Shown: positions 11,374 to 13,469 of the stretch, in pieces | Numbering within the stretch: the first letter of the stretch is position 1 | How the letters are laid out: every line of letters starts with the position of its first letter | Assembly: GCA_020630295.1 (NCBI GenBank) | Contig: JAHDBR010000022.1 | Span: forward strand, 1-34,375 | DNA length: 34,375 nt | DNA from: Sphingomonadaceae bacterium | Lineage (GTDB): Bacteria > Pseudomonadota > Alphaproteobacteria > Sphingomonadales > Sphingomonadaceae | Direction: 5' to 3' | The notes under the pieces: model-generated | What the model was told of the DNA's origin: nothing | Database searches by the model: none | What the model saw: only the letters and a program-made list of their open reading frames with translations | Program-made: the position numbers and the translations under genes

Positions 11374-11820
11374 TTATAGACGTGCTGCGGCCTCTAGCGC
11401 AGTCACATATCCCTGTGTGCCCTGACCCTGAACGGTCTCTACCGCCGCCATTCCGACATAGGAGATATGTCGAAACTCTTCGCGGGTGGAGGGATCGGAT
11501 ATATGCACTTCAATCACCGGAGTACGGATCGCCTTGATTGCATCGAGCAGCGCAATGGATGTGTGCGTATAGGCAGCTGCGTTCAGGAGAACCGCTTTCG
11601 CGCCTTCTGCTTGCGCCTCGTGCAACCAATCGACCAGCATTCCTTCATGATTGGTTTGACGCATATCGATCTCAAGCCCTAATTCGCGCGCCCGATCCTC
11701 TAGCATGCCGGCGATATCATCCAGCGTATCGGGGCCATAAATTTCCGGCTCTCTCGTGCCGAGAAGGTTCAGGTTCGGTCCGTTTAGAACGTAGATGGTG
11801 TTTGTGCTGCTAGTCATCAT
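11374..11820 (-). CDS. aroQ: type II 3-dehydroquinate dehydratase
   Basis: This 148-residue enzyme dehydrates 3-dehydroquinate to 3-dehydroshikimate in the shikimate pathway and forms dodecamers. Signature residues are visible: NGPNLNLLGTREPEIYG with Arg23 and catalytic Tyr28, QTNHEG (about 55-60), Asn80 in LLNAAAYTHTS, and catalytic His106 in EVHISD. Two ATG codons occur in tandem at the start (11818-11820 and 11815-11817) with no clear ribosome site. It lies upstream of accB in the same direction, 84 bases apart. Confidence 0.96.
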   Translation of the reverse strand: MMTSSTNTIYVLNGPNLNLLGTREPEIYGPDTLDDIAGMLEDRARELGLEIDMRQTNHEGMLVDWLHEAQAEGAKAVLLNAAAYTHTSIALLDAIKAIRTPVIEVHISDPSTREEFRHISYVGMAAVETVQGQGTQGYVTALEAAARL

Positions 11821-11892
11821 TATGATTTAGCGCACACGCGGTTTGCAGCAAGTAGTTTGCGTGTATCAGCAATGATCAAGCACTTTGCTGAT

Positions 11893-12306
11893 TTACCGTT
11901 CCACCCCTTTTACTTTACCCCATTGCCGCGCCGCGGTGTAGCCAAGATAGCCGGTGCCGAAGAGGGCGTAGAGCGGTTCAGGTAGCCCGGCGAGATAGGC
12001 GTTCATCCCGCTTGCAATATCTTTTGCTGTTACCGGACTGAACGCAGCAAGCACGCCCATAGGTAATGCGGTCAGCAGCAGCACATACATTACATACAGA
12101 AAACTGGGACGGGCCCGGCTGGTCCAAGGATCTTTGGAGTTTGCTTCCGCGACAATCGCGGCAAGGCGGGCCTCAATGGCTTTGAGTTCCTGCGTGCCTT
12201 CAAGAGCAATCAATTCCAGCTTAGCCTTTGCGCGCGCCTCTTTGTCCGGGATCAGCTTGTCGATTAGCGATGCGATCGGGCCGATGAGTGATTCGAGTAG
12301 TGCCAT
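11893..12306 (-). CDS. holin of the gene-transfer-agent type (GTA_holin_3TM-like)
   Basis: The product has 137 residues. An amphipathic N-terminus (LLESLIGPIASLIDKLIPDK) is followed by a charged helical stretch (about 20-60), then DPWTSRARPSFLYVMYVLLL. A membrane segment spans about 69-90 and a second about 108-124 (PLYALFGTGYLGYTAARQWG). The order and the DPWTSRARP motif match the family of three-TM holins linked to gene transfer agent release. Such a protein would make inner-membrane holes that let a lysin reach the wall. No capsid, terminase, tail or lysin gene is in this window. AAAGGA lies eight bases before the ATG, but both the ribosome site and the start codon fall in a 9-bp hairpin. 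Confidence 0.8.
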   Translation of the reverse strand: MALLESLIGPIASLIDKLIPDKEARAKAKLELIALEGTQELKAIEARLAAIVAEANSKDPWTSRARPSFLYVMYVLLLTALPMGVLAAFSPVTAKDIASGMNAYLAGLPEPLYALFGTGYLGYTAARQWGKVKGVER

Positions 12307-12334
12307 AAGCGAAATCCTTTGGTGATTCGCTTAT
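12304..12334 (-). promoter_or_regulatory. hairpin enclosing the holin ribosome site and start codon
   Basis: On the mRNA strand ATAAGCGAA (12334 to 12326), a 12-base loop TCACCAAAGGAT, and TTCGCTTAT (12313 to 12305) form a perfect 9-bp stem. The AAAGGA ribosome site is in the loop. The first two bases of the start codon are in the 3' arm. The fold would hide the start site, so it may gate translation; as DNA the dyad could also be an operator. Confidence 0.55.
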
Positions 12335-12382
12335 GAACTAACCAAATGGGATAAAGTAGGAAAATAATTATGCTAATTGGTA

Positions 12383-13264
12383 CTACAGATCGGCGCTGTC
12401 TATCATCGCCTTCGCTAATGCCAAGTGCGGACGATCAAGCATTGCGCCGTCAAGGCCGACTGTGCCGGCGCCCGGATTTGCGTCAAATGCTGCGATGATG
12501 GCCCGTGCATGGGCAATCTCTTGCGCGGTTGGAGTAAAGGCCTCGTTTATTATCGGTACCTGAGCAGGATGGATTGCGAGCATCCCGCGATAGCCTTGGC
12601 TACGGACCAGCAGCGCGCGATCCTTCAAACCTTCAAGATCGCGAAAATCGGCCTGTATAGTTTCAACAGGTGCTACTCCGGCGGCCACTGCGCCAAGTAG
12701 GCACAGACTTCGCGCCAGTTCGAAGGTAGGCATATAGCCGCCATTGTCGTTAAATTGCACGCGCGCACCAAGGGCAGACGATAAGTCTTCAGCACCCCAG
12801 CTCATCGCAACGAGGCGAGGCGCGCCTTCGTAATCGCCCGTCGTAAACATTGAGCGGGGTGTTTCCGTAACAAGTGCAGCAACCTTGGTAGCCCCTGATT
12901 CAATGCCGTGTAGTTTTTCGCGCGTTGTTAGCATCGCATCCAGCGCATCCATATCAGGTCGGCCTTCTGCCTTGGGCAAGAACAGTCCGCCCGGAGCAGC
13001 TGGCATAATAGCGTCTAAATCCGCCTCAATGTCGCCGCTCGATAACGGATTAACGCGTACCCAGAGCCGGTGCCGGTCATCGCGCGACGCGAGGAAGTTA
13101 TGTACCATCTCACGAGCGGCAGGTTTGCTTTCCGGCATAACCGAATCTTCTAGATCCAGCAGGACAATATCCGCCTGGCCATCGGCGGCCTTAGCCATCT
13201 TTTTCTCGCTATCTCCGGGGGCAAACAGCCAGGATCGCATTTTTGCAGGGTTACTTTGCGGCAT
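12383..13264 (-). CDS. CitE-like HpcH/HpaI aldolase family lyase
   Basis: The 293-residue protein belongs to the CoA-ester lyase group (citrate lyase beta-like, malyl-CoA/citramalyl-CoA lyases). Family motifs are RSWLFAPGDSEKKMAKA near the N-terminus, LLDLEDSV (metal-binding Glu/Asp region, about 37-44), LWVRVNPL, FLPKAEG and MSWGAEDLSSALG. No alpha or gamma citrate lyase subunit is nearby, so it probably acts alone on a malyl-CoA-type substrate. The exact substrate is not shown. The start at 13264 was chosen because AGGAG lies eight bases upstream; a TTG 16 codons earlier has no such site. Confidence 0.88.
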   Translation of the reverse strand: MPQSNPAKMRSWLFAPGDSEKKMAKAADGQADIVLLDLEDSVMPESKPAAREMVHNFLASRDDRHRLWVRVNPLSSGDIEADLDAIMPAAPGGLFLPKAEGRPDMDALDAMLTTREKLHGIESGATKVAALVTETPRSMFTTGDYEGAPRLVAMSWGAEDLSSALGARVQFNDNGGYMPTFELARSLCLLGAVAAGVAPVETIQADFRDLEGLKDRALLVRSQGYRGMLAIHPAQVPIINEAFTPTAQEIAHARAIIAAFDANPGAGTVGLDGAMLDRPHLALAKAMIDSADL

Positions 13265-13369
13265 TGTCACGTCTCCTGCCAAAGCGTTAAGCGCGTTCAC
13301 AATGCCGTGCAACTACTGAAAATTGCGAACAAAATTTCTGGACTGACGTAATATTGAGTGTGGATATCC

Positions 13370-13385
13370 TGTGAAAAGTTTCACA
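13370..13385. promoter_or_regulatory. perfect CRP-type palindrome
   Basis: TGTGA-AAAGTT-TCACA fits the CRP/CAP consensus TGTGA-N6-TCACA exactly and is symmetrical out to TGTGAAA/TTTCACA. It lies 84 bases before the small membrane protein ATG at 13470. A class II arrangement (site near -41) would put a start point near 13419, with TGTTAC at 13407 as a poor -10. It is also 106 bases upstream of the minus-strand CitE gene. Which gene it controls is not known. Confidence 0.55.
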
Positions 13386-13469
13386 ATGTTACGCATCGTG
13401 ACAGGCTGTTACATCGGAATTTTCTCGTACCAGTGTATCCAATACCGGGGCTACAGAAAGGGTGATGAC

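Follow-up and report, generated by a model that had tools for sequence, protein, structure and literature searches.

A hairpin over the start codon of a Sphingomonadaceae GTA holin gene and its probable role as a fold-back lock on read-through RNA

In the transposase genes of IS10 and IS50, read-through RNA hides the ribosome site, and the element's own promoter starts transcription inside the hairpin; there the fold-back guards the transposase of a mobile element, as opposed to the GTA lysis gene considered here. At the phage lambda holin gene S, a start-site stem-loop tunes two start codons. The holin gene described below, which lies in a 34,375-nucleotide stretch of Sphingomonadaceae DNA (the window, meaning the whole stretch that was analysed), likewise carries a stem-loop at its start, but there is no second methionine close to the start of its product (MALLESLIG...).

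In phage T4, long transcripts derived from upstream fold the Shine-Dalgarno sequence and/or the AUG of gene e (lysozyme), soc, 49 and I-TevI into a helix. RNAs initiated at a nearby promoter on the upstream side are missing the helix's 5' strand and undergo translation; the fold-back keeps the lysozyme gene silent early, an effect of roughly 100-fold (PMC3014915). The window's holin gene resembles gene e in being a lysis gene with a helix that hides the Shine-Dalgarno/AUG region in the folded long transcript, the fold being computed in our case. It differs in that its regulon is that of a domesticated GTA in a bacterium and its promoter is another one, and in that the T4 work is experimental whereas ours is an analysis of sequence. 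Moreover, unlike in T4, the lock is found across genes of three kinds (holin, endolysin and TerS-like) that lie dispersed between housekeeping genes; its arms have been remade in differing sequences, and the lock is mostly absent where read-through is not expected. The kind of lock is already known from T4; what would be new is its spread through a GTA regulon and its tuning by the direction of the neighbouring gene. A search of the open-access literature found no paper that describes this box or a lock on GTA lysis genes.

A central question of GTA biology is how a host prevents a lysis gene from firing when no GTA is being produced. In many genomes the holin gene stands some 10-20 nt behind a housekeeping gene, and some accidental transcription therefore seems unavoidable. 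A lock that acts on read-through RNA only would explain how a holin is tolerated in such a place.

The holin gene and its start-site hairpin

The features of the locus, all on the minus strand, are as follows.
11893..12306, minus strand: holin gene, 137 aa, PF11351 GTA_holin_3TM (open reading frame and profile match).
12304..12313, minus strand: 3' hairpin arm, TTCGCTTATG, with the start codon inside it (inverted-repeat search).
12314..12325, minus strand: loop, TCACCAAAGGAT (sequence and inverted-repeat search).
12315..12320, minus strand: Shine-Dalgarno sequence AAAGGA, inside the loop (sequence).
12326..12335, minus strand: 5' arm, CATAAGCGAA, corresponding to box+4 to box+13 of the numbering introduced below (inverted-repeat search).
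12383..13312, minus strand: citE-like gene of the HpcH/HpaI aldolase/citrate lyase family, PF03328, co-oriented with the holin gene (open reading frame and profile match).

By profile the gene, a GTA-type holin in the earlier note, belongs to family PF11351 (E 6.6e-30; 104.6 bits against a curated cut-off of 24.8), and its function as a holin is predicted. That note had described a perfect 9-bp hairpin at the start site. The hairpin is present at that place, with a stem of 10 bp in which 12304-12313 pairs with 12326-12335 around a loop of 12 nt; the minus-strand sequence of this part of the leader is CATAAGCGAA-TCACCAAAGGAT-TTCGCTTATG. The 12-base loop does hold the AAAGGA motif, and the start codon does lie in the second arm, where not just two of its bases but the whole ATG (complement of 12304-12306) is paired.

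The 133-nt holin leader folds with a z of -2.98, only 1/200 shuffles folding equally well, and in the computed fold of the long transcript the probability that the AUG is unpaired is 0.0. Opening the region from the Shine-Dalgarno sequence to the AUG was calculated to cost 15.1 kcal/mol in the read-through RNA and 4.1 kcal/mol in an RNA beginning at box+11. The Shine-Dalgarno sequence, being part of the loop, takes little energy to open (1.7 kcal/mol); the locked part consists of the spacer and the AUG only.

The window's own genome carries a GTA-like cluster (G000:C18) comprising genes for terminase, capsid and a non-contractile tail. The genus genomes gave 0/8 matches to GTA_TIM (PF13547), and its absence had prompted the idea of an orphan holin that outlived its GTA; this was dropped in view of that cluster and of the matches to PF09343, which were seen in 7/8 genus genomes, 6 of them above the cut-off.

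A promoter-like box upstream of GTA lysis genes

Upstream of the hairpin, and overlapping it, lie four further features.
12339..12363, minus strand: 25-nt promoter-like box, TTTCCTACTTTATCCCATTTGGTTA, homologous to the box before Sphingomonadaceae GTA holin, endolysin and TerS-like genes.
12358..12363, minus strand: predicted -35, TTTCCT, 17 nt from the predicted -10 (from the box layout and the genus GTA-cluster promoter).
12335..12340, minus strand: predicted -10, TAGTTC, overlapping the first base of the 5' arm (same basis).
12326..12330, minus strand: predicted start of transcription from the box promoter, most likely 12328, i.e. box+11, inside the 5' arm.

Holin homologues have in common a 25-nt box, TTTCCTACnnnnACCnAnnTGGTTA, just upstream of the gene; in most of 88 loci with close holin relatives (a few of which are one sequence fetched twice), the block TTTCCTACnnnAACCnAtnTGGTTA stands 30-40 nt 5' of the ATG. 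With one mismatch allowed, the box pattern was found in 108/298 genomes of the family and 45/96 genera, mostly as a single copy per genome, against 1/298 for a reversed-pattern control; across the class it was found in 3/385 genomes, two of these in the family, with 2 for the control. Being at background elsewhere in the class, the box belongs to Sphingomonadaceae in the broad sense, and named loci include those of Erythrobacter, Pontixanthobacter, Aurantiacibacter and their kin. The copy in the window's genome has one mismatch to the pattern; the 3 other matches in that genome, each with 3 mismatches, equalled the number in the reversed control (3) and were treated as chance. Of these matches, those at L090 and L092 fall within or at the edge of open reading frames.

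Among 169 unique box sites, 140 precede a holin gene, 7 an endolysin, 11 a TerS-like and 5 a small tail-fibre-like gene, and 6 are without a gene label; this sample is skewed to holins because many loci were gathered by way of the holin itself. One member of the lysozyme-like endolysins was profiled and matched Glyco_hydro_108 and PG_binding_3, while TerS-like and tail-fibre-like are our own labels, members of these groups having given no Pfam match when profiled. From this distribution, the box looks like the mark of a GTA regulon and would represent a new promoter motif for such a regulon in a large bacterial family.

Eleven holin loci have no recognisable box (L013, L016, L017, L019, L022, L024, L025, L042, L073, L086, L087). 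They retain fragments (CCTAC, GCGA(A/C)TC), but not the AACC-N5-GGTT dyad described below, and their leaders, from which the hairpin is absent, fold at -4.1 kcal/mol as against -10.2 kcal/mol for the other 77 loci (a few duplicates among them). A GTA tail gene is present in 8/11 of the genomes concerned.

The layout of the box is promoter-like, consisting of TTTCCT, a 17-nt spacer and TAnnnn, and T and G are over-represented at positions box+3 and box+4. Five genomes of the genus show the same arrangement ahead of their GTA cluster, where TTGACA occupies the place of the -35, the spacer is again 17 nt and ends in TTTGGT, TAG(A/T)(G/A/C)A follows, and TTTGGTTAG is also present. Between the predicted -35 and -10, the box consensus contains the inverted repeat AACC-N5-GGTT, whose left half reads ATCC in the window's genome. 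In Caulobacter, the gtaT promoter, which is activated by GafY/GafZ, has a GafZ dyad, GCGCCCG-CTGGCGC, between -35 and -10, a -10 of TATCTTT and a long leader with the ATG at +251 (PMC11150451). A dyad lies between -35 and -10 in both cases, with different letters and with these elements predicted in ours, and the gtaT -10 resembles the TATnTG at the end of our box.

At three TerS-like genes (L118, L208, L209) the ATG stands at box+12 or box+13; judging from this spacing, their RNAs are apparently leaderless and start near box+11. Three considerations place the start near box+11 (here 12328), namely the position of the -10, these TerS-like start codons and the loss of covariation from box+11 onward (see below). 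We infer that the box is a promoter from which transcription starts near box+11, i.e. at 12328 in the window.

Arm covariation in read-through and own-promoter RNAs

In an arm-swap test, the 5' half of one leader was folded with the 3' half of another and 5000 permutations were run. The 6 box sites without a gene label were left out of the 169, as were leaders whose start codon had not been snapped or whose length fell outside the limits used, and 152 leaders remained for the arm-swap test and 150 for pairing positions; some start codons were snapped wrongly (e.g. at L211) and dropped out by length. Removal of leaders fewer than 10 edits from a kept one left 108 for the position and start-shift tests, 109 for opening cost and 111 for orientation; L146, with a misplaced start, was removed from the orientation set of 111.

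Native leaders folded at -9.97 kcal/mol and swapped ones at -7.38 kcal/mol (n=152; z -13.8; 0/5000 permutations). The effect was retained among leaders at least 15 edits apart (n=36; z -8.7; 0/5000), among holin leaders only (n=34; z -7.6; 0/5000) and among non-holin leaders (n=14; z -4.8; 0/5000), whereas control regions of the same loci showed none, with z -1.1 upstream of aroQ (n=48) and z +1.0 upstream of accB (n=31). Paired changes in both arms among homologues, which the earlier note had proposed looking for, are therefore seen, at z from -4.8 to -13.8. The surplus pairing fell in two stretches, one running from box+4 to box+14 and the other from -13 to -1 relative to the ATG; since the latter ends at -1, the pairing of the start codon itself in the window exceeds what is generally kept.

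The letters of the arms vary by locus yet remain complementary (CATAAGCGAA in the window, CGGCTCC at L178, GCCTT at L201), and neither loop nor arm showed sequence conservation among homologues. Stems that differ in sequence and still pair favour RNA pairing over a DNA-reading protein. As judged by this covariation, the start-site hairpin is under selection; with the arms covarying and the region from Shine-Dalgarno to AUG buried in the computed fold, the proposal that the holin is under a translational lock is strongly supported.

The covariation depended on where the folded RNA began. With the fold starting at box+1, +4, +7, +8, +9 and +10, z was -12.0, -11.4, -9.3, -7.1, -6.2 and -2.7, respectively, and with starts at box+11, +12, +13 and +14 it was +1.4, +2.7, +2.9 and +2.5 (108 leaders); RNAs from the predicted start were, if anything, less folded than swaps. 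Because covariation vanishes from box+11, the paired bases lie mostly 5' of the predicted start. Any hairpin weakens when its 5' arm is cut; the telling point is that the effect ends where the predicted start falls.

The cost of opening the Shine-Dalgarno to AUG region was on average 3.8 kcal/mol higher in read-through than in own-start RNA (109 leaders). This gain was at least 3 kcal/mol in 64/109 leaders, compared with 19% of swapped leaders; it was below 3 kcal/mol in 45/109 overall and 18/46 of those linked to citE, and below 1 kcal/mol in 22/109. For many of the holins, an own-start RNA would still contain the portion of the stem (CTC/GAG) that is located downstream of box+11, and a holin RNA beginning at or before box+4 would hold the whole stem in the gene's own message.

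We reasoned that the hairpin acts as a fold-back lock on read-through RNA, and that RNA from the box promoter starts inside the 5' arm and stays open (probability roughly 0.68). RNA polymerase arriving from the co-oriented citE-like gene, the proposed source of read-through, whose stop codon lies 19 nt from the box, would yield an RNA with both arms; this RNA would form the 10-bp stem holding the start codon and spacer, so that the lysis pore would not be made. Once the GTA regulon is switched on, transcription would proceed from the box promoter. The predicted start near 12328 falls on base eight of the 5' arm; the gene's own RNA would therefore lack most of that arm, form no stem and be translated. 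The earlier note had counted a start inside the 5' arm against the lock; such a start is what we predict here, and it belongs to the mechanism rather than contradicting it. The switch is most likely the choice of promoter, not temperature or a ligand.

Upstream gene orientation and alternative readings

Gene orientation offers a natural experiment on selection against accidental translation, and the test was written down before it was run. Direction called from open-reading-frame length alone was discarded as too ambiguous in GC-rich DNA; classes were instead assigned from matches to citE, from a search for tRNA genes and from a score of GC by codon position. This last heuristic mislabels some loci (of 78 citE rows it called 3 divergent and 41 unclear), and the citE match overrode it. 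A co-oriented citE lies upstream at 78/140 holin sites, with a median of 10 nt from its stop codon to the box, too short a gap to hold a terminator. At 24 holin or endolysin sites (e.g. L037, L117, L143, L205), a co-oriented tRNA-Pro(GGG) ends 32-219 nt before the box, and at none of these 24 is it on the other strand; it is possibly the old integration site of an ancestral phage.

A gain of at least 3 kcal/mol was found in 28/46 leaders behind citE, 16/20 behind tRNA-Pro, 10/14 behind other co-oriented genes, 8/14 of unclear class and 3/17 beside divergent genes. The lock was thus present in 54/80 co-oriented and 3/17 divergent leaders (Mann-Whitney p 2.5e-5; Fisher 2.3e-4), p values that overstate independence because the loci are related and the 17 divergent leaders represent about eight upstream contexts. 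For arm covariation, z was -7.0, -5.7 and -5.5 behind citE, tRNA-Pro and other co-oriented genes, respectively, against -1.0 (757/5000) for 16 divergent leaders; L147, whose class is doubtful since its neighbour has no Pfam match, was left out of this comparison, which makes the lock present in 3/16. The three divergent loci that keep it are L123, L124 and L185. Among the neighbour proteins of the divergent class, 8/10 of those scanned match Pfam (E up to 0.001) in the divergent frame, one of them, to DUF885, below the cut-off; the neighbours at L167 and L147 gave no match. At the boxless holin loci the neighbour is divergent in 10/11 (by eye). The orientation pattern is not accounted for by kinship of loci or by the heuristic classes, although both make the p values weaker.

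We regard as evenly balanced the broader proposal that the Sphingomonadaceae GTA regulon uses promoters starting inside a hairpin as a safety catch, re-evolved in new letters behind co-oriented genes or tRNA and lost beside divergent ones. If it is true, presence of the lock would be predictable from the direction of the neighbouring gene, and lethal phage genes would be safe to keep within host operons.

The same results bear on other readings of the hairpin. A regulated translational lock in the gene's own mRNA, in the form of a thermosensor, a riboswitch or the target of an antisense RNA or protein, would account for a stable stem over the start codon and for its conservation by covariation. 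It is nevertheless unlikely, since covariation is absent in RNAs from the predicted start onward, the structure is largely missing where the upstream gene is divergent despite the same box and gene, and the letters of loop and arms are unconserved between homologues; for a thermometer or riboswitch in particular, Rfam gave no match in window positions 11800-13400 at E up to 1. The triggers suggested in the earlier note (temperature, an RNA or a protein) accordingly find no support, the lock requiring bases upstream of the predicted start and being mostly absent beside divergent genes.

Somewhat less likely again is a hairpin at the 5' end of an mRNA starting a few bases after the box, where it would protect against decay or serve a Q-like antiterminator of the GafZ type. 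Covariation beginning near box+4 agrees with such a start, and the AACC-N5-GGTT repeat between the predicted -35 and -10 is placed like the Caulobacter GafZ element (PMC11150451); orientation of the upstream gene should not matter to a hairpin of this kind, however, and the three TerS-like genes with their ATG at box+12 or box+13 leave no room for it.

That the window's repeat arose by chance is very unlikely. Finding one perfect 10-bp repeat within 34 kb is no rarity by itself, because block shuffles of the window contained one of at least 10 bp in 4/10 cases and none in 6/10 (about 0.4 per shuffle), and the outer five pairs of the stem are private to the window's genome and absent from its relatives in the genus. 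No other inverted repeat in the window is perfect over 10 bp or more with a loop of 3-20 nt, and the exact arms of this one occur there once. What gives the repeat meaning is its position on the start site together with the covarying arms of its homologues, and the inner stem is already disfavoured as chance. Least probable of all is the alternative named in the earlier note, a DNA operator with dyad symmetry, which would be bound by a repressor near the transcript start: the palindrome does overlap the predicted start site, but its arms differ widely among orthologues and genes with pairing kept, where a sequence-reading protein would need fixed letters, and no link to upstream gene orientation would be expected.

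The fold-back lock on read-through RNA remains our preferred reading. Several smaller observations were made at box sites. Behind the box at L132, L141, L145 and L168 stands a small, unassigned protein family (L.TALA.L..S.SSL.W or similar), possibly one more protein with a part in lysis; by eye, 3/4 of these sites have a hairpin at the start site, again in new letters. Two related uncultured viral contigs from IMG/VR (L215, L216) carry an exact copy of the box, and the next long frame comes after a leader of at least about 105 nt, a hint at a possible phage source of the GTA promoter. In the 5' arm of many holin leaders (uncounted) a GCGANTC motif was noticed, and 12322-12326 of the window reads GAATC; GANTC, the CcrM methylation site, could be a cell-cycle input or merely part of the stem. 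Upstream of the GTA cluster (L100 67-160, from G000:C18, and the same place in L101-L104), about 40 nt past the promoter of TTGACA-17-TAGAGA type, comes a strong terminator-like hairpin (GGCAGCC/GGCTGCC in L100) and then a TerS-like gene, a layout that resembles lambda pR' and would need an antiterminator.
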